From: Ruminococcus sp.
Lineage (GTDB): Bacteria; Bacillota; Clostridia; Oscillospirales; Ruminococcaceae
Assembly: GCF_024692365.1 (NCBI RefSeq)
Contig: NZ_JAILMR010000036.1
Coordinates: forward strand, 1 to 64,000
DNA: 64,000 nucleotides
Direction of reading: 5' to 3'
The notes under the pieces are model-generated. The model did no database searches. It saw only the letters and a list, made by a program, of their open reading frames with translations, and was not told where the DNA came from. Position numbers and translations under genes: made by a program. This document shows positions 9,271 through 44,250 of this stretch, one piece after another (position 1 is the stretch's first letter; every line of letters starts with the position of its first letter).

Positions 9271-10095
9271 TCAGCAAGCCGTATCATTCACGGTTGCTGT
9301 TTCGGTATTTTCCTGATCATCAGTTTCCTCTGATTCTTCATCTTTGGGTGGTTTTCTGTGGGTCAGGCTGTATGCCATGAACAGAGCGGCGATGGGAATT
9401 ATCGTCATGCACCCTGCACCGCTGGATACTATCTGGAGAAAATCCTGACAGAAAACTTTTGAATTGATTATCTCCGCAAGGGAATATTCGTACTCGCGGA
9501 ACCAGATAACAAGGGTCATGAATTCACCGATATAGGCGAACAAAAGGGTGTTGGTCGTAGTGCCGATTATGTCCCTGCCTATATTCATTCCCGAGATGAA
9601 AAGTTCACTCATGCTGAGTTCGGGATTGTTTTCATGAACTTCAAACAGCGCAGAAGTTATGGCGATAGCCGTGTCAGTTATGGCGCCGATAAGTCCCATC
9701 AGCATCATGGCGAGAGTGACCTGCCGCATATCAAGTCCGATATCAGGACTGTACCAGCATATCTCTTCGGTATTTTCATCAGCAAAGCCCTGTATGTGGG
9801 AACTTGAACCGATGTACAGCATCACCGCCGCGAAAAGTAACAGCACAGTCGCTATTGCCGCGAAGGCTGTAACGGTCTTGATGTTCACGCCGTTTATCCA
9901 GAAAAGTATCACTACGCCTATGACTGCACAGCCGATTATCGTCACGGCGACGGCGTTCACTCCGCAGGCTATCAGGAAAACGGTCACTATCAGTATGATG
10001 ATGTTTGCGTACATGGCGGCGAAGGTCTTTGCTCCTCTTATCCCGCCTACCGCTATCATCAGTATCAGAAGAATCGTTCCGAGTATGAATTCCAT
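9271..10095 (-). CDS. YibE/F-family membrane protein (second of pair)
   Basis: 274 residues with about seven or eight hydrophobic segments and the family-type core around GLIGAITDTAIAITSALFEV and GRDIIGTTTNTLLFAYIGE. The acidic C-terminal tail (DEESEETDDQENTE) is probably cytoplasmic. It abuts the longer YibE/F gene upstream and shares its core (compare GREIGKDIMGTMTNVLLF there), so the two probably form a heteromeric membrane complex. The molecular function of YibE/F proteins is not established; transport has been suggested. The operon faces the same way as the zinc genes but ends at its own terminator. Confidence 0.8.
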   Translation of the reverse strand: MEFILGTILLILMIAVGGIRGAKTFAAMYANIIILIVTVFLIACGVNAVAVTIIGCAVIGVVILFWINGVNIKTVTAFAAIATVLLLFAAVMLYIGSSSHIQGFADENTEEICWYSPDIGLDMRQVTLAMMLMGLIGAITDTAIAITSALFEVHENNPELSMSELFISGMNIGRDIIGTTTNTLLFAYIGEFMTLVIWFREYEYSLAEIINSKVFCQDFLQIVSSGAGCMTIIPIAALFMAYSLTHRKPPKDEESEETDDQENTETATVNDTAC

Positions 10096-11249
10096 TACGC
10101 ATCGCCTTCTTTCGGCTGAGGTGATACCTTTTTTGTGCCTTTCAGCATATGGGTCGAAATGAAAATCGCTATTGGTATGGTTACGACTATGCCTATTCCG
10201 CCAACGAATGCACGGACTATTTCAAGGTCGAGGTAATTGTTGAGAACGTCCGTAAGTGTGACATTGTTCCTGAGTGCCAGTATTATCAGCGGTATACAGC
10301 CGCATACATAGGTGAAAAGCAGAACGTTGGTCATGGTACCCATTATGTCCTTGCCTATCTCGCGTCCCGAATGTCTTAGTGCGGCAAAAGTGATACTGTT
10401 ATCTCGGTCGATAAGTTCAGACATTGAGGAGGACATGGTTATCGAGATATCCATTATCGCACCCAGACCGCCCACCAGAAGTTCGGATATAAATATTTCT
10501 TCGTAGGGTTTGATAAGGTACTGCATCTGGTCGAAACGAACACCTCTGCCGTTGGTGAGTTTAAGTACTGTGTAGGCAATGGCGATGGTGACAGCGGTAC
10601 CGCAAAGTGCAGAAATTACAGCTGCCGCAGTTTTTTTGTTTACACCGCTGACGATAGTAAGCGATGTCGCAGTGAACAGAAAAGCCGCTCCGAGACAAAG
10701 CACGAAAAGGTCAAGACCGCGGTGGTAGAATTCTATGGCGGCGATAAAGATCAGTGTGTTTAACGTAACAGAAAGGAGAGAAAGTGCGCCTTTTTTACCC
10801 CCGACGATAACTATGGTCAGTGCAAAAAGCATAGTAACACCGACGGCATAAACGTCACGTTTTACACCCGTACAGGTCGCTTTGAGTTTATCACCCGAAC
10901 CATTTACATCAACAAACAGCTTGTCGCCTTTTGAGTATTTTTCGTCAGTCACCAGTGATGAGGAATACTTATTTGTTACCGTGGCGAACTTGCCTTTGTG
11001 TACGCCGTTTTTTATCTCAACTGTCAGTCGTTGGGTGTATTGATACTCCTTTGAGTTTATCAGTGCGGGGGAAGTTGACGTAAGTTCTTCCGACACCGAT
11101 ACGACTTCCGCTATGGTTCTGTCATAAAGGAAATAGTCATTTTCGGTGAAGATCACCCCACCGATACATATCAAAAACAGTATAATCAGAGTTACCGCTT
11201 TTTTTCTGCCGACCTTTTTCAGCAGATCTTTCAGGTTCATATCTATCAT
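10095..11249 (-). CDS. YibE/F-family membrane protein (first of pair)
   Basis: 384 residues. One N-terminal hydrophobic segment (about 18-36) is followed by a ~100-residue extracytoplasmic beta-rich part (the YibE-type region) and then seven or so membrane segments with the family core LVGGLGAIMDISITMSSSMSE and GREIGKDIMGTMTNVLL. It overlaps the start of the downstream paralogue, so they are translationally coupled. The substrate is unknown. A TTGACT-17-TATAAT promoter lies 37 bases upstream. Confidence 0.82.
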   Translation of the reverse strand: MIDMNLKDLLKKVGRKKAVTLIILFLICIGGVIFTENDYFLYDRTIAEVVSVSEELTSTSPALINSKEYQYTQRLTVEIKNGVHKGKFATVTNKYSSSLVTDEKYSKGDKLFVDVNGSGDKLKATCTGVKRDVYAVGVTMLFALTIVIVGGKKGALSLLSVTLNTLIFIAAIEFYHRGLDLFVLCLGAAFLFTATSLTIVSGVNKKTAAAVISALCGTAVTIAIAYTVLKLTNGRGVRFDQMQYLIKPYEEIFISELLVGGLGAIMDISITMSSSMSELIDRDNSITFAALRHSGREIGKDIMGTMTNVLLFTYVCGCIPLIILALRNNVTLTDVLNNYLDLEIVRAFVGGIGIVVTIPIAIFISTHMLKGTKKVSPQPKEGDA

Positions 11250-11285
11250 CTTCCTTGTTGTTATTAAAATAGAATGTTCAATAAT

Positions 11286-11314
11286 ATTATATCCAATCAG
11301 CGCCGCTAAGTCAA
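11286..11314 (-). promoter_or_regulatory. Promoter of the YibE/F pair
   Basis: Minus-strand TTGACT (11314-11309), 17 bases, TATAAT (11291-11286). Confidence 0.65.
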
Positions 11315-11452
11315 CTATATATTATAATTGTAAATTCTTTTGTGGAGTCGTGAGGTCTTTATCAGCGCGTTGATTGGGTGAATACTAACAATTATTATTT
11401 GCTGATTTTTATATTTTGTAGAAGTTTAGACGATTTTTCTTGAAAGTTACTT

Positions 11453-11487
11453 TTCCTATTGACATGATAGGAATTGTAGTGTATAAT
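11453..11487 (+). promoter_or_regulatory. Promoter with palindromic operator of the ABC transporter
   Basis: TTGACA (11459-11464), 17 bases, TATAAT (11482-11487). The -35 box sits inside a perfect 7-7-7 palindrome TTCCTAT-N7-ATAGGAA (11453-11473), the position expected of a repressor site. The leader to the start codon is about 230 bases. Confidence 0.7.
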
Positions 11488-11591
11488 AAGTAAAGCCTAT
11501 TAAACTGATATGAAATATATGAGTGGTTGCATTTGTATGTTTAGTTATAAAAAATAGGTACGATATCGGAATAATGCGCGTGATACGGCGG

Positions 11592-11686
11592 CATACGAAA
11601 ATATACGATCGTATGATCTGGTACACGGTCGTATACGGTGGTATAAATTCGTATACGTTGGTATGATCTGGTATCGGAAAGTTTAC
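11592..11686. repeat. GTATAC-type palindromic repeat, copy 3, inside an mRNA leader
   Basis: Built of ATACGAAAATATAC, ATACGATCGTAT, ACGGTCGTATACGGTGGTA and TAAATTCGTATAC units. The string GTGGTATAA(a/t)TTCGTAT also occurs in copy 2 at about 6437. It lies between the promoter at 11459 and the start at 11725. Confidence 0.65.
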
Positions 11687-11724
11687 GACATGACATTTTT
11701 ATATTTGAAAGGAAGAATATCACT

Positions 11725-12657
11725 ATGAAAAAAAGATTACCTGCATTTATAATTTCTGCCGCACTGGCATTCTCTGCTGTTTCCTGCGGAAAATCCGACA
11801 GCAAGAATAAAGACGATGCAAACACTGTTAAGATAGCTTATCTGCCTATCACTCATTCTCTGGCTGTGTTAGAGGAAGCTGAGGAACTTGAAAAAGAATC
11901 GGGACTGAAAGTTGAACTTGTAAAGTACGGTTCATGGGCAGAATTGCTTGACGCACTGAATTCAAACAGAGTTGACGGTGCATCTGTGCTGATAGAACTT
12001 GCGATGAAATCAAAAGAGGAAGGCATCGGACTGAAAGCTGTTGCACTGGGACACCGTGACGGTAATGTTATCATCGTTTCAAATGATATAGATTCTGCCG
12101 CTGACCTTAAAGGCAAGACCTTTGCGATACCTCACAGACAGTCATCTCACAACATACTGCTGAATGATGCACTTGCAACAGCGGGTCTTACTACTGCCGA
12201 TGTAAATGTGACAGAACTTGCGCCTACCGAGATGCCTTCGGCACTTGCAAGCGGTCAGATAGACGGCTACTGTGTTGCTGAACCTTTTGGTGCAATGGGC
12301 GTTAACCTCGGGGTAGGAAAGGTGCTTTTCAGTTCCGAGGAACTTTGGGAAGAATCCCTCTGCTGCGGACTTGTGCTGACTGACAAGTTCATCGATGAAC
12401 GTCATGATGATGCTAAGTCATTCGTTGAAAGCTATAAGGCGGCAGGAAACGCCCTCGATAAGGAAAAGGCTAAAGAGGTAGCGAAAAAGTACCTGAATCA
12501 GACCGATGAAGTACTTGACACATCGCTGCAGTGGATATCCTACAACGATCTTGACATAACAGAGGAAGCTTACAATGCACTTGCCGAGAAGGTCAAGGCA
12601 TACGGGCTTTCCGAAAACCCTCCCGCATATGCGGACTTTGTAAAAAATGATTTTTGA
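11725..12657 (+). CDS. ABC transporter substrate-binding lipoprotein (NMT1/SsuA/NrtA type)
   Basis: 310 residues with a lipoprotein signal (lipobox AVSC, Cys21) after an AAGGAAG ribosome site. The rest has the two-lobe fold of the nitrate/sulfonate/thiamine-precursor binding proteins: KIAYLPITHSL at the start, then IPHRQSSHNILL and MPSALASGQIDGYCVAEPFG. The substrate cannot be read from sequence. It is the first gene of a binding protein-permease-ATPase set that sits just ahead of the CODH-like gene, so the ligand may be related to that enzyme (inference). An unusually long leader carries the GTATAC-type palindrome. Confidence 0.85.
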   Translation: MKKRLPAFIISAALAFSAVSCGKSDSKNKDDANTVKIAYLPITHSLAVLEEAEELEKESGLKVELVKYGSWAELLDALNSNRVDGASVLIELAMKSKEEGIGLKAVALGHRDGNVIIVSNDIDSAADLKGKTFAIPHRQSSHNILLNDALATAGLTTADVNVTELAPTEMPSALASGQIDGYCVAEPFGAMGVNLGVGKVLFSSEELWEESLCCGLVLTDKFIDERHDDAKSFVESYKAAGNALDKEKAKEVAKKYLNQTDEVLDTSLQWISYNDLDITEEAYNALAEKVKAYGLSENPPAYADFVKNDF

Positions 12658-12663
12658 TAAGGC

Positions 12664-13434
12664 GTGATAATAATGAAAAAACTGCTCTCACTGAAAAACG
12701 TTATCATATCGGTGGCGATACTGATATTGATATGGCAGCTGCTGTTCTCTGTCAGCAGTTATGATAAGGCTTTGTTCCCTTCACCTAAAATGGCATTTGA
12801 TGCCTTGGTAGAGTTGATAGAGAACGGAAAACTGTTTGAGAATATAAGAACGAGTATGTACCGCTTTGTTACAGGATATTTCAGCTCGGTGATCGTTGCT
12901 GTGGTACTGGGACTGATACTAGGAAGAGTACCGAAGTTATTTCAGTACATAAATCCTGCGGTACAGCTTTTAAGACCTATCTCACCTACAGCGTGGATGC
13001 CTTTTATCGTTCTGCTGTTCGGTATAGGTGATGTTCCTGCTATCGTTATAATTTTTATCGCCGCATTTTTCCCTGTGTTATTGTCAACGGTATCGGCGGT
13101 GGGAAATATCGACCCTGTTTACCTGAAAGTTTCAAAGAACTTTGGTATCAAACAGCCTGCGCTTACGTGGAAAGTTATTTTTCCTGCGGCGTTCCCGCAG
13201 ATAGCAAACGGTATTCACCTTGCGTTGGGTACTGCATGGATATTCCTTGTAGCAGGTGAAATGGTCGGTGCGCAGTCGGGACTCGGCTATCAGATAATCG
13301 ATGCGAGAAATAATATCCGTGCGGATATCCTGCTGGCGACGATACTCGTTATCGGTATAATCGGCATACTGCTGGACGGTCTGCTGAAACTGGTTGAAAA
13401 AGTTATACTTAAATCCTGGGGAGGTGCTGCGTAA
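12664..13434 (+). CDS. ABC transporter permease (SsuC/TauC type)
   Basis: 256 residues, about six membrane segments, and a typical binding-protein-dependent permease loop (SKNFGIKQPALTWKVIFPAAFPQI), which contacts the ATPase. The region LRPISPTAWMPFIVLLFGIG is typical of the SsuC/TauC/NrtB branch. The annotated start is TTG- or GTG-like at 12664 or the ATG at 12673 (MKKLLSLK), which fits the GGCGTGA upstream better. It begins just after the binding-protein gene and overlaps the ATPase start by one base, so the three form one operon. Confidence 0.88.
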   Translation: MIIMKKLLSLKNVIISVAILILIWQLLFSVSSYDKALFPSPKMAFDALVELIENGKLFENIRTSMYRFVTGYFSSVIVAVVLGLILGRVPKLFQYINPAVQLLRPISPTAWMPFIVLLFGIGDVPAIVIIFIAAFFPVLLSTVSAVGNIDPVYLKVSKNFGIKQPALTWKVIFPAAFPQIANGIHLALGTAWIFLVAGEMVGAQSGLGYQIIDARNNIRADILLATILVIGIIGILLDGLLKLVEKVILKSWGGAA

Positions 13435-14204
13435 TGTATATCGAGGTAAAAGATGCCAGCAAAAATTATGTTCAAGACGGCAAAGAGTTTGTTGCCCTTG
13501 ATAACGTTTCTCTCAGCATTGACAAGGGAGAATTTATATGCCTTCTGGGACCTTCCGGCTGTGGAAAAAGTACACTTCTGAACGCACTGGCAGGGTTTGA
13601 AAAGGTCAACAGCGGTACCGTCAAGATAGACGGAAAGGAAGTAACTTCACCCTCGATCAACAACATAACCATCTTCCAGAACTACGGACTTCTTCCCTGG
13701 AGAAATGTTCAGAAAAATGTGGAACTGGGACTTGAATCAAAAAAAGTTCCCAAGTCTGAGCGTGCAGCTATTGCACAGAAATACCTTGAACTTGTGGGAC
13801 TCAGCGGGTACGAAAAGCGTTATCCCAAGCAGCTTTCGGGTGGACAGCAGCAGCGAGTTGCTATCGCAAGAGGTCTCGCGGTTGACCCCGATATCATATT
13901 CATGGACGAACCATTCGGTGCCCTTGATGCTATCACAAGAATGAAGCTTCAGGAGGATATCCTCAGAATTTCCCGCGAGGAGAAAAAGACCATAATTTTT
14001 GTCACCCATGATATTGAAGAAGCGGTATTTCTTGCTGACAGGATAGTTGTGATGATGGCAGACCCGGGCAGGATAAAGAGTATCGTCAAGGTACCGTTAG
14101 GTTCAAACCGCAACAGGACAGGGGAGAACTTTTTGTATGTCCGTGACCGTATATTTGAACTGTTCAATATGAAAGCGGACGAATATATAGAGTATTATAT
14201 CTGA
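13434..14204 (+). CDS. ABC transporter ATPase (SsuB/TauB type)
   Basis: 256 residues with a complete nucleotide-binding domain: Walker A GPSGCGKST (about 39-47), Q-loop FQNYGLLPW, signature LSGGQQQR, Walker B IIFMDEPFGALD and the switch VTHDIEEA. It powers import by the permease encoded directly upstream, at whose stop codon it starts. No C-terminal regulatory domain is present. Ninety bases later begins the CODH-like gene, which has its own promoter. Confidence 0.9.
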   Translation: MYIEVKDASKNYVQDGKEFVALDNVSLSIDKGEFICLLGPSGCGKSTLLNALAGFEKVNSGTVKIDGKEVTSPSINNITIFQNYGLLPWRNVQKNVELGLESKKVPKSERAAIAQKYLELVGLSGYEKRYPKQLSGGQQQRVAIARGLAVDPDIIFMDEPFGALDAITRMKLQEDILRISREEKKTIIFVTHDIEEAVFLADRIVVMMADPGRIKSIVKVPLGSNRNRTGENFLYVRDRIFELFNMKADEYIEYYI

Positions 14205-14233
14205 TTTATCAGGTGATTTTTTCAGACAGGGTA

Positions 14234-14271
14234 TTGAACAATTCATAGTGTTGTGGTATAATATGAATTGT
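14234..14271 (+). promoter_or_regulatory. Promoter and 10-bp inverted-repeat operator of the CODH-like gene
   Basis: TTGAAC (14234-14239), 17 bases, TATAAT (14257-14262). Perfect arms ACAATTCATA (14238-14247) and TATGAATTGT (14262-14271) bracket the spacer and the -10 box. The start codon is 23 bases beyond the right arm. Confidence 0.75.
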
Positions 14272-14293
14272 ATTTTTAAGAGAGGCTGGTATT

Positions 14294-16420
14294 ATGAGCG
14301 AGAATAAACATAAACACTGTCACGAGCATGAGCATCATCACGAGCATCATCACGATCATGACCATCATCATTCGCCTGCACATATCCATTCACACAGAAA
14401 CATCATCGGCTTTGATGAACACGGTATCCCTACTGTGATACTAAAGGCAAGTCACGGTGAGGGTGAGGCTGATGATCCGCAGGCATTCATCAGGGATTAT
14501 ATGAACGCTGTTACCGAGTATAAAAAGACTTTTCCCAGCAAGCAGGACGTTATCGATCAGACCCCCGACCCTGCTGTAAGGGAAATGCTGCTGCGTATGG
14601 AACAGCTTGGTATAGATACTGCATTCGACCGTTTTGATAAGCAGAAACCCCAGTGTAATTTCGGTCTGGCGGGAATATGCTGTAAGATATGCAACATGGG
14701 ACCATGTCGTATCACCGCAAAATCCCCTAAGGGAATCTGCGGTGCTGATGCTGATCTTATCGTTGCAAGGAATCTGCTTCGTTCCGCTGCGGCAGGTGCT
14801 GCACAGCACGGTATGCACGCAAGAGAAGTTATGCTGGCGTTGAAATGGGCGGCAGAGGGCAAACTTGATGTTCCCATAATGGGCGAACAGAAGATACGTT
14901 CAACTGCGGAAGCTTTCGGCATAAAGCAGAAGAACCGTCAACTGAAAAATGTTGCTAAAGATCTTGCGGACGCACTGCTGGAAGATATGTCGAGATCGGT
15001 GCCCGGTGAGTACAAGACCATATCAGCCTGTGCTGTTCCCGAAAGACAGAAGGTATGGAAAGATCTGGATATCCTGCCTATAAGTGCATATCACGAAGTA
15101 TTTGAAGCTTATCACAAATCGGGCTGTGCGACCGACGGCGACTGGAAGTCGGTAATGCAGCAGTTTTTAAGATGTGGTCTGGCTTTCACTTTCTCGGGAG
15201 TTGTAGGTGCATCTATCGCAACGGACAGCTTGTTCGGCGTTGGCGACAGAGTTACTTCAAAGGTCAATATCGGTGCGCTCGAAAAGGGTTATGTAAATAT
15301 AGCGGTACACGGACATCTGCCGCTGCTTGTAAGCCAGATAGTTGAAGCAGGAAAGCGTGAAGACCTGATAGAACTCGCCAAAAAAGCAGGTGCAAAGGGC
15401 ATACGCTTTTACGGCATCTGCTGTTCGGGACTTTCGGCTATGTACAGATATGCGGGAGTTATCCCCCTTTCAAATGCTGTATCAGCTGAACTGGTACTGG
15501 GAACAGGCGCACTTGATCTCTGGGTGGCTGATGTTCAGGACGTATTTCCGTCAATCATGGAAGTTGCACACTGCTTTAAGACCACTGTTGTTACTACAAG
15601 TGAGTCCGCAAGACTTCCCGGTGCTGAACGATATGAATACGATCATCATCATTCCAATATCGGTGAAACTAAGGCACTTGCCGAGAAGATAGTTCGCCGT
15701 GCTATCGAAAGCTTTGAAGCGAGAAAGGGAATTCCCGTTTACATACCGCCTTACGAGGTCGAAGCAGAAGTCGGTTTCTCCGTTGAGTATATCCACAAGC
15801 GTTTTGGCAGCATGAAACCCCTTGCGGAAGCTATAAAGGACGGCAGGATACTGGGTATCGTCAACATGGTCGGCTGTAACAATCCGAAGGTGCTGTACGA
15901 AAAGTGCATAGTTGATGTGGCTGATGTTCTGCTGAAAAACAATGTTCTGATAATCTCCAACGGCTGTGCTTCTTTCCCGCTGATGAAGCTGGGATACTGT
16001 GCTGTATCTGGCAAGGAAAAAGCAGGGGAGAGCCTGAGAGAATTTCTTGAACCCGATCTGCCCCCTGTATGGCACGTGGGAGAATGTATCGATAATACAC
16101 GTTCATCGGGAATATTTGCAGGTGTTGCAGGTGCGCTGGACCATAAGATGTATGAGATGCCTTTTGCATTTTCATCGCCCGAATGGGGCAACGAAAAGGG
16201 CATAGATGCGGCACTCGGATTCAGGCTGAACGGTATAAGTTCGTACCACTGTGTTGAAGCGCAGATTTACGGTTCAAAGAACGTTATCGAGTTCCTGAAA
16301 TACGGTACGCTTGAAACTCTGGGTTCGTCCATGAACGTTGATACAGACCCTGTTAAGCTGGGCGAGAAGATAGTTGCTGATATGAAAGCCAAGAGAAAAG
16401 CACTTGGCTGGTATAAATAA
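14294..16420 (+). CDS. cooS: Carbon-monoxide-dehydrogenase-like (CooS family) with His-rich head and altered C-cluster ligand
   Basis: 708 residues, longer than the usual ~630 because of a head with 17 His in residues 6-34. The D/B-cluster cysteines of Ni-CODH are present (C121, C129, C130, C133, C138, C149), as are the histidines QHGMHA (172, 175), VHGH (339, 341), GICC (376, 377), GCNN (C528), NGC (C558), GEC (C597) and the active-site lysine in SPEWGNEKG (K635). The motif usually written DxQC, whose Cys binds the Ni-Fe C-cluster (C333 in C. hydrogenoformans CODH-II), here reads DVQD with D416. No acetyl-CoA synthase, CooF or CooC gene is in the window. It is a CooS-family metalloprotein; CO oxidation is uncertain. 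Confidence 0.85.
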   Translation: MSENKHKHCHEHEHHHEHHHDHDHHHSPAHIHSHRNIIGFDEHGIPTVILKASHGEGEADDPQAFIRDYMNAVTEYKKTFPSKQDVIDQTPDPAVREMLLRMEQLGIDTAFDRFDKQKPQCNFGLAGICCKICNMGPCRITAKSPKGICGADADLIVARNLLRSAAAGAAQHGMHAREVMLALKWAAEGKLDVPIMGEQKIRSTAEAFGIKQKNRQLKNVAKDLADALLEDMSRSVPGEYKTISACAVPERQKVWKDLDILPISAYHEVFEAYHKSGCATDGDWKSVMQQFLRCGLAFTFSGVVGASIATDSLFGVGDRVTSKVNIGALEKGYVNIAVHGHLPLLVSQIVEAGKREDLIELAKKAGAKGIRFYGICCSGLSAMYRYAGVIPLSNAVSAELVLGTGALDLWVADVQDVFPSIMEVAHCFKTTVVTTSESARLPGAERYEYDHHHSNIGETKALAEKIVRRAIESFEARKGIPVYIPPYEVEAEVGFSVEYIHKRFGSMKPLAEAIKDGRILGIVNMVGCNNPKVLYEKCIVDVADVLLKNNVLIISNGCASFPLMKLGYCAVSGKEKAGESLREFLEPDLPPVWHVGECIDNTRSSGIFAGVAGALDHKMYEMPFAFSSPEWGNEKGIDAALGFRLNGISSYHCVEAQIYGSKNVIEFLKYGTLETLGSSMNVDTDPVKLGEKIVADMKAKRKALGWYK

Positions 16421-16435
16421 TTTGGAGGAATAAAA

Positions 16436-16828
16436 ATGGCTTGTTTTGTAGTGCCTGCAACAGAGGCGATAGTTACGACTGTTATACAGAAGGTAGTCGC
16501 AAAAAAGGAGAAAAATGAAAACAAGGACGGCAGCCAGATGAAGATCGGTTTTGCTGATAAGCTGAAATGGCTCAACGGTATGCTTTGGGGCGGTTCTGGA
16601 CTGCTGGCTTTTGAACACGTATGGCATGGTGAGGTAACACCTTTCTTCCCATTCCTGACAGCGGCAAATGATCCTGCTGATACTGCTGAAATGCTGCATG
16701 AGATGGCAACATCGGGCAGCGCTATGGCGGTACTTGTTACGGTGGTCTGGGCAGGATTGGTCATCGTTTCAAATAAGATAACGGCTTCTGACAATAAGTC
16801 TGATAAGAAAGCAGGTGCGACGGCATGA
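16436..16828 (+). CDS. Small membrane protein of the CODH-like locus (A)
   Basis: 130 residues; I do not recognise a named family. It starts 16 bases after the CODH-like stop, with a GGAGG site. An N-terminal hydrophobic stretch (MACFVVPATEAIVTTVIQ) leads into a charged KKEKNENKD patch, then WLNGMLWGGSGLLAFEHVWHGE, which includes two His near a membrane segment, and a last segment (AMAVLVTVVWAGLVIVS). Its stop overlaps the start of the next small membrane gene. Tight packing suggests that both act with the CODH-like protein at the membrane, which is inference. Confidence 0.75.
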   Translation: MACFVVPATEAIVTTVIQKVVAKKEKNENKDGSQMKIGFADKLKWLNGMLWGGSGLLAFEHVWHGEVTPFFPFLTAANDPADTAEMLHEMATSGSAMAVLVTVVWAGLVIVSNKITASDNKSDKKAGATA

Positions 16829-17145
16829 CACTTCTTATAACTGTAATTGCAGCTGTGATCTCCACAGTGGTCTGGTATTCAAGCGAGAAAGCCAGAGAGC
16901 TGAAAACAGGCGTTCTGCTGTATATGTTCTGGGGCGCTTCGCTGATGTGGCTGGTTGATGCGGTAGTTGAGTATCTCGAAAGCGGCGCTGAATATTTCCA
17001 GCCCGCAGGTGCAGATATGCTGAATGATGCCTTCCTTGGTTTGTCAGTAATTGCACTGGCTCTGGTAATATGGGTCATCGTTTTACTGGTGAAAGACCCC
17101 ACAGGCGCACTTAAAAGAACTATCCTCAGCAGAAAAAGCAGGTAG
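16825..17145 (+). CDS. Small membrane protein of the CODH-like locus (B)
   Basis: 106 residues with three hydrophobic segments (about 2-17, 28-46 and 66-90) and a basic C-terminus (KRTILSRKSR). No family is recognised. Its ATG overlaps the end of gene A by four bases (ATGA), a sign of translational coupling. Together with gene A it adds about five or six membrane segments to the locus and could form a membrane anchor or channel partner; no catalytic motif is visible. Confidence 0.75.
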   Translation: MTLLITVIAAVISTVVWYSSEKARELKTGVLLYMFWGASLMWLVDAVVEYLESGAEYFQPAGADMLNDAFLGLSVIALALVIWVIVLLVKDPTGALKRTILSRKSR

Positions 17146-17179
17146 TAAAATATCGTCGGATCTTCCGATACAATAAGAT

Positions 17180-17211
17180 CACCGTCCGTACTTTTTATGG
17201 TATGGGCGGTG
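17180..17211 (+). terminator. Terminator of the CODH-like operon
   Basis: Imperfect 12-bp stem CACCGTCCGTAC / GTATGGGCGGTG followed by GTTTTT. Confidence 0.75.
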
Positions 17212-17231
17212 TTTTTATATATACAAAAGCA

Positions 17232-17259
17232 AACGGCAGTTCCCGAAGAAACAGCCGTT
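17232..17259 (-). terminator. Terminator of the GH5 gene
   Basis: Stem AACGGCAGTT / AACAGCCGTT (one mismatch), read on the minus strand 20 bases after the stop, then TGCTTTTG. Confidence 0.65.
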
Positions 17260-17281
17260 ATAGGTTCTGTGAAATTATCTG

Positions 17282-19051
17282 TTACTTAATAGTGATAGTG
17301 ACAGCGTTCTTGATAGGATCGGTCGTGTTCCACTTACCGTTGACTCTAGCAGCAATAGCAACCTTGTAGGTCATGCCGGGAGTCAGGTTCTTGGGAGTTA
17401 TATAGTTGTTGGTTGTGATGTCAGACTTCTGAACTCTCCACTTACCAGCCAGCTTAACAGCGATACCGTACTTATCAGCACCCTGTACCTTATCCCAGAT
17501 AAACTGTACCTGGTGATACTGAGTGTTGTAATTTACCTTAATGTTCTTAGGATAATCATTATTCTGAGGCTGAGGATCGGGATCAGGAGTTGTATGTGAA
17601 GTTGAATAATAATCACTGAGCGAGATACCGTTTCCGGACTTGCCAAGCTTTATCTTATGGTCAAGGCTGATGAATTTACCTTTTTCGTCCTGCCACAGTG
17701 AGGGCTTAACGAATTCATACTTCTCTTCGTCCCAGTGATCCCAGTTGCAGTCGCTTGCGATAAGTCCGCCTGTATCGGAGGAGTTTTCGTTGAAGCACCA
17801 GAATGTGTGGTGGATACGCTTATCGATCATGTAGTCACGGAGAACTTCCATCCAATGTTTGTTAGCACCAGAGGGGTCGTTGACTGAGTCGATACGTCCG
17901 CCCCATTCGCCCATCAGCAGGGGAGAGATCTTCTCTTCAACAAGGAAAGCCCATGAATCATACCAGTACTCTTTAAGCAGAGATTTTCTGTCGAATTCAT
18001 AACTTGTATAGTTGGGACCCTTACCCTGCAGGTGGAACCATGACTGCTCGTAAACCAGAGGACCGTAGTCATGGGGTGAGTATACCAGCTGGCTCTGATA
18101 CTTGCCGAGATTTACGGGATAATCCCTTGCACCGCGGAAGTTTCCGCCCCACCATGCGCCGTGATATGGCTGATAATCGGGGTCGCCGTAGTGAGCGTAA
18201 TCGGTTGAATTTGAATTCCAGTCGAAGCCCTTTTCAAACTTAGGATAAACCTCTATGCCCTCAACCATTATAAGGAGGTTAGGGTTCTTATCGAGGCAGG
18301 CTTTAGCGCCCTTTTCAGCGGCATAACGCCAGTTGTTGGCGTCGCTGGAGCCGTCCCATTTAGCAAAGATACCATCATCTTTTTTGCCATGGGGCTCATT
18401 CTTGAGGTCGATGGCGATGATCGTATCATCGTCCTTGTAGTAGTCAGCGAACCATGCCAGTGCATCGAGCCAGTCCTTCTCGCTGTAGTTGCTGTCGTAC
18501 CACAGTGCGTAGTTATGACCTGCGGCATTGGTAGTAGCGCAGTGAACGTCCATCATTATCTTGATACCGTTCTCTCTGCACCATTCAACAGCCTTGTTCC
18601 AGATATCAAAGCTGTACATGGGAGTTCCGCCTACTACACCTTCAAGGGTGAGCTCGGGATTCTTCCATTCGTTAAGCTTGATGATGGGGTCGGGATCGCC
18701 GTTTTTCCACTGGAGAAGTATCTCAGTGGACATGGGTACACGGAGCAGATTGAAGCCGTGATCGGCTATCTCGTTGAGCGCCTGGTGCATATTTATGCTC
18801 CATACGCCGTCAAAAACCTGACTTCCTACGTTATATCCGAACCAGTTGCAGCCTGTCATCCATACAGGATTACCGTTCATATCAACTACTTCGGCGTTTT
18901 CGTTTACGTGGAGCCAGTCATCGTGGTAAGAATCATGAGCTGCTGCGGATGCAACAACTGCATTCTTTCCGTTCAGAAACGGAGCTGCTGCAAGTACGAG
19001 TGTGCAGGCAGTAGCTGCTGCGGTCATACCTGAGATCAGTTTTTTCAACAT
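17282..19051 (-). CDS. Secreted GH5 endoglucanase with C-terminal FN3-like module
   Basis: 589 residues from the ATG at 19051, chosen over 19060 because GAGGGG is nine bases ahead. An N-terminal signal peptide (MLKKLISGMTAAATACTLVL, ending near SAAA) marks secretion. The (beta/alpha)8 catalytic domain has the acid/base E219 in DLKNEPHG and the nucleophile E382 in LMGEWGG, as in family 5 cellulases. A PDPDPQPQ linker joins a ~95-residue C-terminal module that is nearly the same as the one ending the LRR protein at 32914-34182. It should cleave internal beta-1,4-glucan bonds. No dockerin is present. Confidence 0.88.
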   Translation of the reverse strand: MLKKLISGMTAAATACTLVLAAAPFLNGKNAVVASAAAHDSYHDDWLHVNENAEVVDMNGNPVWMTGCNWFGYNVGSQVFDGVWSINMHQALNEIADHGFNLLRVPMSTEILLQWKNGDPDPIIKLNEWKNPELTLEGVVGGTPMYSFDIWNKAVEWCRENGIKIMMDVHCATTNAAGHNYALWYDSNYSEKDWLDALAWFADYYKDDDTIIAIDLKNEPHGKKDDGIFAKWDGSSDANNWRYAAEKGAKACLDKNPNLLIMVEGIEVYPKFEKGFDWNSNSTDYAHYGDPDYQPYHGAWWGGNFRGARDYPVNLGKYQSQLVYSPHDYGPLVYEQSWFHLQGKGPNYTSYEFDRKSLLKEYWYDSWAFLVEEKISPLLMGEWGGRIDSVNDPSGANKHWMEVLRDYMIDKRIHHTFWCFNENSSDTGGLIASDCNWDHWDEEKYEFVKPSLWQDEKGKFISLDHKIKLGKSGNGISLSDYYSTSHTTPDPDPQPQNNDYPKNIKVNYNTQYHQVQFIWDKVQGADKYGIAVKLAGKWRVQKSDITTNNYITPKNLTPGMTYKVAIAARVNGKWNTTDPIKNAVTITIK

Positions 19052-19072
19052 AAAATACATTCCCCTCTTCGG

Positions 19073-19100
19073 CTGCCTGTCAGAAAATATTTGCAGGCAG
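19073..19100 (-). other. 5'-UTR hairpin of GH5 mRNA
   Basis: CTGCCTG / CAGGCAG with a 14-base loop, at the expected 5' end of the transcript and just ahead of the ribosome site. Confidence 0.5.
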
Positions 19101-19114
19101 TTTAATATGGTGAT

Positions 19115-19143
19115 ATTATACAATATTATAAGGAGATTGTCAA
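19115..19143 (-). promoter_or_regulatory. Promoter of the GH5 gene
   Basis: Minus-strand TTGACA (19143-19138), 17 bases, TATAAT (19120-19115). Confidence 0.75.
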
Positions 19144-19538
19144 TAAGTAAAAACATTTTTCCGCGAATTGAACGATATCTGCTTTATGTTTTCGTGACAT
19201 TCATGAAATAGATTTTGAAAATGGAGTGGATCGATGCTGTGAAAGGTTAAGTTGATAAGAAAGTCAAGGTGAAGATCCGACGATATTTGTACGCCGCTAT
19301 GTGCAAAAATATTATTCTTTTGAGATAATATTATTTTATGAAAACGTTTGAGGCGATGTTGGAATATTAACATTTATAGAAATTCTCATCAAGAAAGCTC
19401 TTTTATGCCCAAAAGCTTCGCTGATACGCCGTTTTGTTGATGTGTAGCGTATGATTGTTATGTTGTATTTTTGATAAAAATAATAAATATTTGAACAAAA
19501 TAATATCCACTTTTTACGCCAAATATCCACGATGTGAG
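19144..19538. other. Divergent intergenic region
   Basis: No gene is seen. It holds an inverted repeat AATATTAT / ATAATATT near 19307-19335 and, close by, AAACGTTT (about 19340) inside TGAAAACGTTTGAG, which resembles but does not fully match a LacI/CcpA-type operator. The two flanking glycosidase genes diverge from here. Confidence 0.4.
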
Positions 19539-19567
19539 TTGACCGATTTGAATAAATTTAGTATAAT
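19539..19567 (+). promoter_or_regulatory. Promoter of the GH43 gene
   Basis: TTGACC, 17 bases, TATAAT. A leader hairpin TGATTGT / ACAATCA (19612-19633) follows, immediately before AAGGAGG. Confidence 0.75.
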
Positions 19568-19648
19568 AAAATAACAAAATAGGATATGTGCCAATATAAT
19601 GGCGCAGTTCTTGATTGTTTTTATACACAATCAGAAGGAGGAATAGAC

Positions 19649-21928
19649 ATGAAAATCAGCTCGAATGTTAAAAAGCTTAGTTCCACGGCTTTAGCGGGCG
19701 CTATGCTTTTTACACAATCAGCACTCCCGGCAGACGTTGCACTCAAGGCAAATGCCGAGGACAATTATTACTACCATGATACGTTTGAAGACGGCAACGA
19801 CGGTTGGGAAGCACGTGGAGCCGGCGAGACCACTCTCAGCGGCAGACATCCTTTCGCAGGAACTAATGCACTTCTCATAAAGGATCGTACAAGTGCATGG
19901 CAGGGTCTTCAGAAGACACTTGATACTTCGTATTTCTTCCCGGGTGAGTGCTACAGCTTCAGCGTAAACGTTGATTATGAGGATGGCGACAGCCAGCAGA
20001 CTTTCCTGCTCTCACTGCAGTACACTGATTCGACAGGTACCGTGAAGTATGATCACATTGCTCAGGGCACTGCTTCTATCGGAAAGTGGCTGGAACTTTC
20101 TAACCCCAGTTACACACTGCCAAGTGACGCAAGCGACATGATACTCTATGTTGAAACTCTTGATGTTACAGGCAACTTCTACATTGATGAAGCAAAGGTC
20201 GTAAGCGCAGGCGGTTCTGCAGGTAGCGGAAAGAAGCTTAAAGCTTTAGGCGATATCAATTTCGACGGTGATATCGATATTCTCGACCTTATCGAGGCTA
20301 AGCGCGGTCTGCTGAAGGGATTCAGCGATAAGAATGCTGAAAAGGCTGCCGATGTTGATCAGAGCGGCGTTTTTGACAACGACGATGTTAACTATCTGGC
20401 ACAGTTCATCTCTAAGCGTATAACCGAATTCCCTGTTGCAGCAAAGGCAGTTGATGTATCAGCTATGGAAGCTAAATTCAATAATGTAAGAATAGGCAAG
20501 AGCTATAAGTATGACGGCGAGAACAATCCTCTCACAACAACACGTTTCGGTGCTGACCCGGGCTGGATGGTTTACGACGGCAGACTTTATATCTACACCA
20601 CTAACGACGCTTTTGAGACCAGAAGCGACGGACAGTATCAGGAAAACACCTACAACTCCGGTACTATCAACTGCGTATCTTCCGCAGATATGGTCAACTG
20701 GACAGACCACGGTGCTATCCCGATAGCTGCAAGAAACGGCAGAACTCAGAACGGCTGCTGCTCATGGGCAAGTGCAGCATGGGCTCCCGATGCTTGCTGG
20801 AAGATGATCAACGGTAAGCCTAAATTCTTCCTGTACTTTGCAAACAGCGGCGGCGGTATCGGCGTTGTAACTGCTGACAGCCCCACAGGTCCCTGGAGCG
20901 ATCCTCTCGGTCATGCACTGCTTTCGCACAACTCACCCAACTGCTCAAACGTTGAGTGGATGTTCGACCCCGGTGTATACTACGATGAGAATACAAATGA
21001 AGCTTATCTCTTCTTCGGCGGCGGACGCAAGAACGGTGTTCCTGCAGCTACTCCCGGCACAGGCCGTGTTGTTAAGCTCGGAAATGATATGATCTCTCTT
21101 GCAGGCACCCCCGTTTCCATGAATATCCCTTACCTCTTTGAAGATTCAAGCGTTATCAAGATCGGTGATACATGGTATTATTCTTACTGCTCTAACTGGG
21201 ACGTAGGAAACCAGACAGTCAACGGCGTAAACTTCGGAAACGCTGATATTCTTTACATGACTTCAAAGACACCTCTGGATGCAAATTCCTGGAAGCTTGC
21301 AGGTAATGTATTCAAGAACACAGCTTCACAGCATATAGACAACGGCGGTAACAACCACCACTCTATCGTCTACTTCAAGGGCAAGTACTATGTTGTTTAC
21401 CACAGCCGTCAGTATGCTATCCGCAAGATCAAGGCTGAAAACATCAAGGTCTACACTAACCAGGGTAAACTGAGTGCAGACGGTAACTATCGTTCTACTC
21501 AGATCAATGAAGCTACCTTCAGCAATGGCAAGTTGTCTTGCAACGGCAATATGAAGGGCGTTTCTCAGATCGAATGGCTCGATCCTTACACAACCGTTCA
21601 GGCTGAAACAATGTCCAACCAGTCCGATGACGTTCAGGTAAACGGTCTCAGAAATACTACTGTATCCATGAAGTCCGGCAGCTGGATCAAGGTTAGCGGC
21701 GTTAACTTCAGCAAGGGTGTTGACACCATCACCATCAAGGGTTCCGGTAACGGCACTGTTATCAAGGTTTGCACAGGCAGCCCCACAGGCAATGTTATAG
21801 GCTATGTTGAGCTCAACGGCTCTATGAGCGAACAAACTGTTGCAGCTATTGATTCCGTAAGCGGTACAAAGGATCTGTATTTCGTAGCAAGCGGCAATGC
21901 AACTCTCGACAGTTGGAGCATGGGTTAA
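19649..21928 (+). CDS. Secreted GH43 enzyme with CBM, internal dockerin and CBM6-like tail
   Basis: 759 residues from the ATG at 19649 (AGGAGG ahead, signal peptide after; the longer frame from 19586 lacks both). Order: signal peptide, a jelly-roll carbohydrate-binding module (about 35-185), a dockerin in the middle (about 200-265, with DINFDGDIDILDLIEAKRG and DVDQSGVFDNDDV), the five-bladed GH43 domain, and a CBM6-like module (about 645-759). Likely catalytic residues are D303 (ADPGW), D440 (MFDPGV) and E498 (FEDSS). Probably an arabinofuranosidase or xylosidase acting on arabinoxylan; subfamily is uncertain. A decayed second copy of the tail follows the stop. Confidence 0.85.
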   Translation: MKISSNVKKLSSTALAGAMLFTQSALPADVALKANAEDNYYYHDTFEDGNDGWEARGAGETTLSGRHPFAGTNALLIKDRTSAWQGLQKTLDTSYFFPGECYSFSVNVDYEDGDSQQTFLLSLQYTDSTGTVKYDHIAQGTASIGKWLELSNPSYTLPSDASDMILYVETLDVTGNFYIDEAKVVSAGGSAGSGKKLKALGDINFDGDIDILDLIEAKRGLLKGFSDKNAEKAADVDQSGVFDNDDVNYLAQFISKRITEFPVAAKAVDVSAMEAKFNNVRIGKSYKYDGENNPLTTTRFGADPGWMVYDGRLYIYTTNDAFETRSDGQYQENTYNSGTINCVSSADMVNWTDHGAIPIAARNGRTQNGCCSWASAAWAPDACWKMINGKPKFFLYFANSGGGIGVVTADSPTGPWSDPLGHALLSHNSPNCSNVEWMFDPGVYYDENTNEAYLFFGGGRKNGVPAATPGTGRVVKLGNDMISLAGTPVSMNIPYLFEDSSVIKIGDTWYYSYCSNWDVGNQTVNGVNFGNADILYMTSKTPLDANSWKLAGNVFKNTASQHIDNGGNNHHSIVYFKGKYYVVYHSRQYAIRKIKAENIKVYTNQGKLSADGNYRSTQINEATFSNGKLSCNGNMKGVSQIEWLDPYTTVQAETMSNQSDDVQVNGLRNTTVSMKSGSWIKVSGVNFSKGVDTITIKGSGNGTVIKVCTGSPTGNVIGYVELNGSMSEQTVAAIDSVSGTKDLYFVASGNATLDSWSMG

Positions 21929-21943
21929 TTTCCAATAAAGTTC

Positions 21944-22038
21944 AAAGCTAAGGTATGCACCTGCAGCGCAGGCGGCAAAGACGATTTTACTTCGTATTCA
22001 ACGATTTGGCTTCTGTAGATAGTTGGAGCCTTAGCTAA
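21944..22038 (+). pseudogene. Decayed duplicate of the CBM6-like C-terminus
   Basis: Two stretches after the stop resemble the end of the GH43 protein: AKVCTCSAGGKDD (compare IKVCTGSPTG) and, in another frame, FYFVFNDLASVDSWSLS-stop (compare LYFVASGNATLDSWSMG-stop). A frame change and an internal deletion separate them. Confidence 0.55.
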
Positions 22039-22058
22039 CATATAACATTTCCCCGAGG

Positions 22059-22094
22059 AAGGATCCTCTGTTCGTAAGGACAGGGGATCCTTTT
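22059..22094 (+). terminator. Terminator of the GH43 gene
   Basis: Stem AAGGATCC / GGATCCTT with further inner pairing CTGT/ACAG, then TTTT. Confidence 0.75.
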
Positions 22095-22110
22095 CTGTCA
22101 TAATGAAAAA

Positions 22111-22140
22111 AGATCATCGGAATATCAACTCCGATGATCT
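22111..22140 (-). terminator. Terminator of folT-folC
   Basis: Perfect 10-bp stem AGATCATCGG / CCGATGATCT with a T-run on the minus strand, 19 bases after the folC stop. Confidence 0.8.
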
Positions 22141-22158
22141 TTGCTTTTTTGATATTAT

Positions 22159-23427
22159 TTAAGGTATAAGTGCCATAGCTTCCTTGAATTCGCGGTACAT
22201 ATAAAGTGAGCCAAGTGCCATCATTGGCAAGCCGTTTTCTTTGGCGTAAGTATACGCCGCTGATACTCCGTCGGGAAGTTTTTCAAAGCTTTCGGCGGGA
22301 ATGCCCTTGTCGGTAAATACTTTGGCAAGTGCGGCACTATTCAGTGCTCTGGGATTGTCGGGAGTAACGGTGAACACCTTTTCGATGAACCTCCCCAGCA
22401 TATCCGTGTACAGCTTATAGTCCTTATCTGCCATCACGCCGATAAGCAGAACGACCTTTTCAGTGAAGTACATCTCGATACTTTCTGCTGCACGGGCGAT
22501 ACCATCGGGATTATGGGCACCATCAAATATAACATAAGGGTCACGGCGCATAACCTCAAATCTGCCCTGCCATACGGTTTCGGCAAGACCTTTGCGGAGA
22601 TTTTCGGTACCGATAGTTAAACCATTTTTTCTCAGTATCTCCACACAGCACATAAGGTTTACGATGTTATCGCGCTGATATGTGCCGCAAAGAGGAACTG
22701 TGAAATTCTCTCCGTTCCAGCAGAAGGATATCCCGTCAAGGCTGTATGAGATATCGGTAAGCAGACTGTCGTCAAACAGAGTGAGAGGTGCGTCAAGCTG
22801 TTCGGCACGTTTTGAGATAACTGCGAGGGCATCGCTATCTCTGCCGCCGAAATAAACGGGACAGCTTTGCTTGATTATGCCCGCCTTATGACCTGCGATC
22901 TCGGCTATGGTGCTGCCAAGAAATCCGCAGTGGTCAAGTGCCACATTGGTTATGACCGACAACAGGGGAGCGCTCATAAGGTTGGTGGCGTCGCCGTCGC
23001 CGCCCATGCCGCATTCCACAACAGCGATATCGCAGTCCTCCTGTGCAAACAGCAGATAAGCCGCTGCTGCTATGACTTCAAACTCGGTGGGCTTTTCTGC
23101 CATGGATTCTATATATGGCTCGATAGTGCTGATAAGCTGGGCAAAACGTTCTTTGGTGATCTCACGACCGTTTATGCGGTAGCTGTCGGTCACGCCTGTC
23201 ATTGCAGGTGAGCAGAAACTGCCGATTTTGTAACCCGAGCAATGCAGTACTGATGATAGCATAGCCGTGAATGAGCCCTTGCCGTTAGTGCCCGAAATGT
23301 GGACTATCTTGATTTTTTCCTGCGGGTCGCCCAGCAGTCGGAGAAGTTCTTTTACTCGGTCAAGACCAAGTACGCTGCCTCGTGCGGCGGCTGTCTTCAA
23401 ATAGTCAAGTGCTTGTTCGTATGTCAT
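22159..23427 (-). CDS. folC: Folylpolyglutamate synthase / dihydrofolate synthase
   Basis: 422 residues, the normal FolC length. The ATP-binding loop GTNGKGSF lies at about 46-53, followed by the Mur-ligase-type centre (VECGMGGDGDATN) and C-terminal domain (IFDGAHNPDG). It adds glutamate to folates, which traps them in the cell, and may also make dihydrofolate from dihydropteroate. It overlaps the folT stop by four bases, so uptake and retention of folate are coupled in one THF-riboswitch-controlled operon. Confidence 0.93.
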   Translation of the reverse strand: MTYEQALDYLKTAAARGSVLGLDRVKELLRLLGDPQEKIKIVHISGTNGKGSFTAMLSSVLHCSGYKIGSFCSPAMTGVTDSYRINGREITKERFAQLISTIEPYIESMAEKPTEFEVIAAAAYLLFAQEDCDIAVVECGMGGDGDATNLMSAPLLSVITNVALDHCGFLGSTIAEIAGHKAGIIKQSCPVYFGGRDSDALAVISKRAEQLDAPLTLFDDSLLTDISYSLDGISFCWNGENFTVPLCGTYQRDNIVNLMCCVEILRKNGLTIGTENLRKGLAETVWQGRFEVMRRDPYVIFDGAHNPDGIARAAESIEMYFTEKVVLLIGVMADKDYKLYTDMLGRFIEKVFTVTPDNPRALNSAALAKVFTDKGIPAESFEKLPDGVSAAYTYAKENGLPMMALGSLYMYREFKEAMALIP

Positions 23428-24011: not shown

Positions 24012-24100
24012 AAAAATAACCTCCTTTTCCACATCATACGACAGAAAAGAAGGCATATAGGCAGATATACCTGCCAAGGGTCTTTTATCTATTGTCCTAT

Positions 24101-24212
24101 GAAGCGGGATGCAAAATACGAACCGCAAGCCTGAAGCTTTTATGCTAGGCTTTTCGTTTGACTGACAACTCCCCGTTCAGTCAACACTTAACGAACGTAA
24201 TTTTACTCTTCA
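24101..24212 (-). promoter_or_regulatory. Tetrahydrofolate (THF) riboswitch
   Basis: Read on the minus strand: GAAGAGTA, then CGTTAAGTG, a hairpin with GGGGAGTTGTC, CAAACGAA, and at the end TTGCATCCCGCTTC pairing with the 5' strand. These match the conserved blocks of the THF-I riboswitch as I know it. It lies between the promoter (24242-24270) and folT and should lower expression when tetrahydrofolate is plentiful. Confidence 0.88.
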
Positions 24213-44100: not shown

Positions 44101-44106
44101 GGAGTT

Positions 44107-44217
44107 GTCTTCGGGGCAGGGTGTGATTCCTGACCGGCAGTTATAGCCTGCGAGCCGCAATGCGGCTGATCCGGTGTGATCCCGGAGCCGACGGTATAGT
44201 CCGGATGAAAGAAGATG
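44107..44217 (+). promoter_or_regulatory. FMN riboswitch (RFN element)
   Basis: The conserved RFN blocks are all present: TCTTCGGGGCAGGGTG, GATTCCTGACCGGC, GCGAGCCGC, GATCCGGTG, CCGGAGCCGACGGT, TAGTCCGGATGAAAGAAGA, with first and last segments pairing. FMN binding should stop expression of the rib genes through the terminator at 44251. Confidence 0.95.
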
Positions 44218-44250
44218 ACTGCGCCATTTTTACGGTAAATCGGATTTTCT

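Follow-up and report, generated by a model that had tools for sequence, protein, structure and literature searches.

This study examined a six-gene locus in a 64,000-nucleotide stretch of Ruminococcus sp. DNA (contig NZ_JAILMR010000036.1, positions 1 to 64,000; hereafter the window), which lies on contig C46 of a draft genome of Ruminococcus type (3.68 Mb, 94% complete; the source genome, G000). The locus encodes a three-gene ATP-binding cassette (ABC) importer that includes a substrate-binding lipoprotein (SBP), a homolog of CooS, the catalytic subunit of nickel carbon monoxide dehydrogenases (Ni-CODHs), and two small membrane proteins, TM1 and TM2 (Table 1). With a probability of roughly 0.6, we read the operon as a sulfur-scavenging system built around a nickel enzyme, in which the importer, reductive sulfide release by the CooS-like protein and nickel supply by TM1-TM2 are combined. 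Sulfur control of the operon is well supported, the importer and CooS belong together, and a linkage of TM1-TM2, which is not CooS-specific, with nickel genes (larB/C/E, urease) is likewise well supported. Taken together, the sulfur regulon and the nickel link point to sulfur provision by a nickel enzyme.

An operator shared with cysteine and methionine genes

The importer promoter carries an operator that overlaps its -35 element (Table 1). Searching the source genome with TTCCTATTGACATNATAGGAA and at most three mismatches returned three sites in 3.68 Mb, and the reversed-pattern control returned none. These three sites of the -35-bearing box precede the window operon, a glutamate-cysteine ligase gene (L249; Glu_cys_ligase domain PF04262, 200 bits, under the NCBIfam equivalog cut-offs) and metY, an O-acetylhomoserine sulfhydrylase gene (L252; TIGR01326, 613.5 bits with a cut-off of 495). 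A metA-type homoserine acyltransferase gene adjoins the L249 gene but sits on the upstream side of the box, and its control by the box is therefore not implied. Between operator and metY, an apparent leader peptide with tandem Cys codons (MKHIRRSVKVSSHLRMCCT...) was seen by eye (L252, about 1300-1500, minus strand).

The box was also sought in relatives, using 96 distinct loci (1.53 Mb) of clade B, the Ni-CODH clade that the CooS homolog fits. This set consists of the best 80 of 209 matches and 16 loci from a sample of 391 genomes of the class, such that close relatives are over-represented; the repeated loci L207, L218 and L246 were excluded from counts. With at most one mismatch, the box with a spacer of 7 matched 13 times, and 10 matches lie directly before relevant operons or genes: the SBP gene (L003, L005, L049), TM1-TM2-CooS (L074, L078, L081), CooS of a 65%-identical branch (L199, L202), metY (L031) and the cysteine synthase gene cysK (L037). 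Spacers of 5, 6, 8 and 9 gave 0, 2, 1 and 0 matches and four permuted arm pairs gave two to three each, none of them before those genes. Additionally, an element like the degenerate second box past the -10 element was present in many of the 17 relatives' promoters inspected. Four of the clade B loci (L028, L031, L042, L047) are filed under Spirochaetales, Thermoguttaceae or planctomycete metagenome-assembled genomes; their CooS is 87-89% like the Ruminococcus gene, and they are possibly mis-binned contigs.

The window box shows the feature expected of a CymR regulon, an operator common to cysteine and methionine genes, and presumably resembles published CymR sites. That an IscR-like iron-sulfur sensor controls the operon because CooS is an iron-sulfur enzyme, with an imported nitrate-like or bicarbonate-like anion unrelated to sulfur, is improbable: the box in the source genome precedes metY and the glutamate-cysteine ligase gene, none of the three sites lies at an Fe-S assembly gene, and metY or cysK adjoins the operon in part of the relatives. 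This alternative draws on the similarity of the CymR and IscR motifs (PMC3828012; here and below, papers cited by PMC number are represented by excerpts of their text) and on two Rrf2 proteins encoded near such loci, which score similarly with the IscR and CymR models and reach neither cut-off.

The sequence-only reading, an earlier annotation made from the letters of the window, had placed a regulatory site before cooS and missed the sulfur box ahead of the SBP gene.

Sulfur genes and leader elements around clade B operons

In 25 of the 96 clade B loci, metY, cysK or the gene for a cystine-uptake SBP is no more than 6 kb away. Among loci with at least 6 kb of total flank, 22 of 73 have such a gene within 6 kb vs. 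none of 58 control loci, which are TM1 surroundings elsewhere in Clostridia (mean 9.8 kb) and are shorter than the stretch searched around the CooS operons. The divergent loci L195, L196, L199, L202, L203 and L206 are flanked by more distant relatives of these sulfur enzymes. In two Butyrivibrio loci (L189, L190), a nitrogenase-like pair adjoins the clade B CooS operon, with a cysteine-synthase-type pyridoxal phosphate enzyme in L189; the other flank holds cystine- and MetNIQ-like ABC genes (named by eye), making up a sulfur island.

In five of 17 Ruminococcus-type loci (L004, L006, L007, L029 and L030, the window not among them), the SBP gene is preceded by a short open reading frame (ORF), which has a ribosome site and encodes a run rich in Met and Cys, and then by a terminator; the run reads NMMCMMQC in L030, for example, and is weaker in L007. 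A conserved CUCCGA in the leader can pair either with GGAGG of the leader or with CGGAG of the terminator, and together with the leader ORF this alternative pairing looks like attenuation. A riboswitch as the sulfur sensor was rejected because Rfam gave none at the window operon or in six relatives, and a lax Rfam threshold gave only a chance match in one R. flavefaciens leader.

The CooS homolog and its partner importer

The CooS homolog fits Ni-CODH clade B, group B-1, because its Asp416 and His-rich head match the definition of that group, Asp or Glu in place of a C-cluster Cys plus a His-rich head (Inoue et al. 2019, PMC6344411), and because R. flavefaciens is named as a clade B organism in PMC13056359 and the orthologs in records of that name are 91-97% identical. 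CooS of R. albus KH2T6 is 98% identical. Across 119 clade B rows (97 distinct genes once 22 repeats are removed), the Asp416 position holds Asp in 115 and Glu in 4, and Cys in all 20 CODHs of other clades; the median number of His residues before the core is 11 vs. 0 in those 20. The homolog retains the D-cluster and B-cluster cysteines, His341, Cys377, Cys528, Cys558, Cys598, His172 and Lys635 (its own numbering); the corresponding CODH-II numbers were assigned via motif matching in the alignments. The type II D-cluster and the acid-base residues are thus complete (C121, C129, H172, K635), and five of the six C-cluster ligands are kept, one short of the full set expected of a functional CO dehydrogenase. 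A reaction other than CO oxidation, as the sequence-only reading had proposed, is likely.

CooS-V of Carboxydothermus hydrogenoformans (clade D) likewise combines a CODH scaffold with one acidic residue for a C-cluster Cys (PMC9311411). The altered residue differs, being Cys295 to Glu in CooS-V and Cys333 to Asp in the window CooS, where C377, at the Cys295 position, is still Cys, as it is in 119 of 119 clade B rows. Membership in the hybrid cluster protein (HCP)/CooS-V group was rejected on these grounds, the Glu at the Cys295 position being missing. To our knowledge, CooS-V has no importer association. Detoxification of hydroxylamine, NO or peroxide under thiol stress by an enzyme of the hybrid-cluster kind would be in keeping with the raised hydroxylamine reductase activity of CODH variants without a C-cluster ligand and with the Fe/S/O cluster of CooS-V (PMC9311411, PMC6344411). 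Besides the different residue, the importer is present wherever the contig allows, although a diffusible gas substrate would need none, and the neighboring sulfur genes are biosynthetic or for uptake; we judge this explanation very improbable.

All three importer genes are complete in 88 of the 96 clade B loci and the other eight are cut by a contig end there, which bears out the association of importer and CooS put forward in the sequence-only reading. Two importers were scored complete despite an apparent break, a single stop in the permease gene of L199 and an SBP in two pieces in L203. The gene orders found were importer-CooS-TM1-TM2, TM1-TM2-CooS-importer and CooS-importer. In the window, NitT/TauT importer genes adjoin cooS, as in group B-1. 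In a sample of 29 genomes of the genus, CooS is present in eight and an SBP ortholog (at least 77% identity) in exactly those eight; a further SBP piece of 62 residues (76% identity) lies at a contig end in a genome that is 76% complete.

The SBP gave a confident structure model (pLDDT 87), with S. aureus 3un6 as its nearest solved structure (41% identity); we take 3un6 to be SAOUHSC_00137/SA0167, the SBP of the S. aureus TauABC operon. SsuA, TauA and NrtA follow, with CmpA lower. The model only confirms membership in the SsuA/TauA/NrtA/CmpA clan and does not name the ligand, and the NCBIfam equivalog cut-offs for SsuABC and TauABC are not reached (TIGR01728, 129.7 vs. 163.5; TIGR01729, 51.5 vs. 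304).

Inoue et al. 2019 (PMC6344411) hypothesized that the importer carries nickel or a nickel chelate; the His-rich head would load it, and the enzyme would be an ordinary though slow CO dehydrogenase. Besides the head itself, the retained acid-base residues and C-cluster ligands agree with this hypothesis, as does the fact that 3un6 was solved with zinc, according to its title. Past 3un6, however, the structural neighbors bind sulfonates, taurine, nitrate and bicarbonate, the operator is common to cysteine- and methionine-related genes, with no other nickel gene among its three sites, the related S. aureus importer is CymR-regulated (PMC5480029), and TM1-TM2 is a better fit for nickel supply. 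This explanation as a whole therefore appears unlikely.

TM1-TM2 and nickel genes

Neither TM1 nor TM2 matched a Pfam or NCBIfam family above cut-off, known nickel transporter families included. The TM1 model is of low confidence (pTM 0.47) and, at E 0.001, matched no fold in the PDB. Among the invariant residues are A2, C3, E60, H61, W63, H64, G65 and E66 in TM1 and W36, G37, A38, D45, E49 and D68 in TM2. Met1 is usually removed ahead of Ala, and the N-terminus of Ni superoxide dismutase binds nickel; by analogy, the processed Ala-Cys N-terminus of TM1 could, as a matter of speculation, bind nickel in a somewhat similar manner.

In the class sample, TM1 is present in 42 of 391 genomes, larC in 175 and both in 37, such that larC occurs in 37 of 42 TM1 genomes vs. 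138 of 349 others (Fisher 1e-9, which ignores kinship). A cooS or lar gene lies within 5 kb of TM1 at 21 of the 50 full-length sites in the class, two of them via a LarE-family gene alone; TM1 fragments (two in G539, one in G304) were left out. The flanks of 44 of these sites were read, G000 was taken from the window, and G378, G488, G576, G621 and G654 were judged by coordinates. Within the genus, all 19 TM1 sites are near a nickel or LarE-family gene (6 cooS, 6 lar, 4 urease and 3 LarE-family only), five of the six CooS-linked sites having been judged by coordinates. TM1 is found in all eight CooS genomes of the genus and beside cooS in six. The neighborhood table used for these class and genus counts has 60 rows, which represent 57 distinct sites. 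In a separate comparison, larB, larC or ureC was found at 23 of 58 TM1 loci and at 3 of 79 clade B loci that are at least 8 kb long.

Neither larC nor a full urease match was found in the source genome, which leaves CooS as its only representative of these three nickel enzymes. The urease profile PF00449 matches in 56 of the 391 class genomes, and only the eight with more than 150 bits look like urease; none of these is a TM1 genome, and the urease link therefore depends on the four Ruminococcus loci. A TM1 tree (80 rows, 130 columns) was poorly resolved, with six context changes among the CooS, Lar and urease rows. In L059 and L060, larE lies upstream of the clade B CooS operon and TM1-TM2 was not found there; larC was seen by eye in L059.

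The sequence-only reading had envisioned all six genes as one integrated system, with both small membrane proteins as anchors or partners of CooS. They do accompany CooS in two orders, either following it or as TM1-TM2-CooS-SBP-permease-ATPase, and in the second order the sulfur box precedes TM1. As a dedicated CooS partner the pair did not hold up: it is complete in only 32 of the 96 clade B loci (a few others are contig-cut), is missing in complete form from 64, and otherwise occurs mostly with larB/C/E, urease or elsewhere. That reading had itself named the small proteins occurring mostly without CooS as the observation that would count against it, and a whole clade B CooS is present in only 2 of the 42 TM1 genomes of the class sample (G000, G595; CooS pieces of 44-148 residues with 55-70% identity in G439, G482 and G621 were not counted). 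An integrated six-gene system is therefore highly improbable.

Proposed mechanism and points against it

Under a shortage of cysteine or sulfur, a putative Rrf2/CymR-type repressor would leave the boxes at 11453-11514 and the operon would be expressed. The lipoprotein would capture a small sulfur-containing anion and the permease and ATPase would bring it in, while the His-rich head, plus TM1-TM2 where present, would help to supply nickel, TM1-TM2 presumably by transporting it. The CooS-like homodimer would receive electrons through its D and B clusters, and the modified C-cluster, with Asp for one Cys, may reduce the imported compound and free sulfide. O-acetylhomoserine sulfhydrylase and cysteine synthase would then capture the freed sulfide.

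Small anions and sulfonates are the cargo of importers of this clan. Because CODHs work on linear molecules of the CO2 kind, thiocyanate or carbonyl sulfide (COS)/thiocarbonate would be the most natural sulfur substrate. Our first guess is accordingly a sulfur anion that resembles CO2, such as thiocyanate or thiocarbonate (the hydrated form of COS), with a sulfonate second. Aerobic sulfonate and taurine systems release sulfite via oxygenases. Siroheme sulfite reductase was found in none of the eight CooS genomes of the genus vs. 5 of the 21 others, a weak difference (p 0.28); if it is absent, this enzyme would not be available here to complete the use of an imported sulfonate or sulfite.

Several observations weigh against sulfur scavenging, including this weak difference, the over-representation of close relatives in the locus set and the short control loci. 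Since the box was first noticed in Ruminococcus SBP promoters, the matches in L003, L005 and the window do not count as independent. The remaining eight do, but the members of two pairs among them, L074/L078 and L199/L202, are closely related. When the -35 element is left out and up to two mismatches are allowed, the box has 34 sites in the source genome vs. 130 for the reversed pattern and is thus not enriched, so that the genome-wide claim depends on the -35-bearing form; with at most one mismatch, two of four such sites lie inside genes (L250, L251). Because IscR-type boxes are similar, Fe-S demand could be the signal. Of the 73 loci with enough flank, 51 are without a sulfur gene inside 6 kb, and the window operon has none next to it either; neither SAM nor T-box riboswitches appeared in Rfam searches of the window and the six relatives. 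The complete TM1-TM2 pair is lacking at the 64 clade B loci mentioned above, and at 29 of the 50 class TM1 sites the visible sequence, in some cases a short flank, shows no nickel gene up to 5 kb away. Finally, 24% of clade B CODHs have no associated neighbor (PMC13056359).

At L250 (contig C112 of the source genome, about 20200-23200), a nitrogenase-like component 1 protein gene adjoins one for an NMT1-type binding protein. The nitrogenase-like protein scores under every nitrogenase cut-off shown and is possibly another sulfur-salvage reductase.

Features of the locus

The coordinates of the locus are collected in Table 1. All six genes were recovered as ORFs, the first four with profile matches, in the order given by the sequence-only reading, which had also called the terminator behind the small-protein genes and a separate promoter before cooS, the latter a consensus match only. 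Profile scores were 133.7 bits for NMT1_2 (SBP), 80.8 for BPD_transp_1 (permease) and 114.9 for ABC_tran (ATPase); CooS scored 451 bits with Prismane and 493.9 with TIGR01702, the anaerobic CODH catalytic subunit (cut-off 478), and is the one Prismane gene found in the source genome. Genes for CooF, CooC or acetyl-CoA synthase were not seen by eye among the ORFs at 9500-20000, in agreement with the earlier annotation. Scans of the window gave 19 promoter-like and 5 terminator-like sites vs. 11.4 and 4.5 in shuffles, so that the promoter and terminator calls depend on the quality of the individual sites.

Table 1. Coordinates of genes, protein features and transcription signals of the operon in the window
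Feature	Position	Strand	Basis
Promoter of importer operon, TTGACA-17-TATAAT	11459..11487	+	12/12 consensus bases
Operator TTCCTAT-TGACATG-ATAGGAA, perfect 7-7-7 inverted repeat, overlaps -35	11453..11473	.	Source-genome and relatives searches
Second box, degenerate, AGCCTAT-TAAACTG-ATATGAA, just past -10	11494..11514	.	Read by eye
Substrate-binding lipoprotein (SBP), NMT1_2 / NitT-TauT type, closest to PDB 3un6	11725..12657	+	ORF, profile, structure model
ABC permease, GTG start	12664..13434	+	ORF, profile matches
ABC ATPase	13434..14204	+	ORF, profile matches
Internal promoter-like site before cooS, TTGAAC-17-TATAAT, TG before -10	14234..14262	+	Consensus match only, 10/12
CooS homolog, fits Ni-CODH clade B group B-1	14294..16420	+	Profile, alignment
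His-rich head, 19 His ahead of CODH core	14294..14407	+	Alignment
Codon for Asp416, replaces second C-cluster Cys (Cys333 of CODH-II)	15539..15541	+	Alignment
Small membrane protein 1 (TM1), invariant MAC... and EHxWHGE	16436..16828	+	Alignment, structure model
Small membrane protein 2 (TM2), 4 bp ATGA overlap with TM1	16825..17145	+	ORF, alignment
Intrinsic terminator, 13 pairs	17180..17211	+	Scan

Between the promoter and the SBP gene, GTATAC-like repeats occur about 21 bp apart (11598-11680); they were not evident by eye in the promoters of the relatives inspected. Directly past the operon (17282-21928) lie secreted glycoside-hydrolase-like genes, one with a repeat that looks dockerin-like by eye. 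Elsewhere in the window there are FMN (44103-44220, plus strand) and THF (24100-24212, minus strand) riboswitches.

Relation to known systems

The pairing of clade B CODHs with a NitT/TauT importer and a His-rich extension is already described (PMC6344411, PMC13056359), ABC transporters being reported in 64% of clade B operons with R. flavefaciens as an example (PMC13056359, eLife 2026). According to the same paper, no function could be deduced for clade B CODHs, and the biochemistry of any clade B enzyme is awaited. PMC11338639 lists two separate types of cooS context, ABC and cysteine-synthase, of which the second is mainly from Megasphaera; the excerpted text gives no sulfur interpretation. 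The word sulfur occurs in the excerpts of PMC13056359 and PMC6344411 only in iron-sulfur or cluster mentions, a species or a reference title, and no open-licence paper retrieved for CODH together with sulfur terms drew this connection in its title or opening abstract lines. The window operon shares with group B-1 the Asp/Glu swap, the His-rich head, the type II D-cluster and the NitT/TauT importer, while the excerpted descriptions of that group do not mention a sulfur operator, metY neighbors or a TM1-TM2 pair. The suggestion of the sequence-only reading that the locus is an undescribed system is thus half right: the importer pairing is in print, and the sulfur control and the nickel link of TM1-TM2 look new.

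A related importer, whose SBP we take to be 3un6 (41% identical to the window SBP), is part of the CymR-regulated TauABC operon of S. aureus (SA0165-SA0169). There, SA0166-0168 are regulated by CymR along with cysteine genes and the excerpts name no CODH gene; SA0169 is annotated as a putative CiaA / NAD-dependent formate dehydrogenase, not a CODH (PMC5480029). SsuABC and TauABC are of the same transporter clan, but the window importer falls under their NCBIfam cut-offs. Both of these systems are under sulfur-starvation control. Like the known nickel importers NikMNQO, NiCoT, NikABCDE and HupE/UreJ, TM1-TM2 is found in urease and Lar gene neighborhoods; it differs from them in having no family match and, for the low-confidence TM1 model, no PDB fold match.

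Implications

A broader proposal, which is possible but which we hold only tentatively, is that clade B CODHs are nickel-dependent reductive desulfurases, their CODH scaffold having shifted from CO2/CO to a CO2-like sulfur anion (thiocyanate, or thiocarbonate/COS), and, in addition, that TM1-TM2 is an unnamed two-part nickel uptake protein. The sulfide would then serve cysteine and methionine synthesis in fiber-degrading gut bacteria, and TM1-TM2 would be common to urease, lactate-racemase-cofactor and clade B loci. For rumen cellulose degraders, placement in a sulfur regulon gives clade B CODHs a concrete role that can be tested and lies outside carbon metabolism. If the enzyme does release sulfide, anaerobic bacteria would have a new source of sulfur and the CODH/HCP family a new chemistry. 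The TM1-TM2 family would fill a gap in the nickel handling of gut Clostridia.

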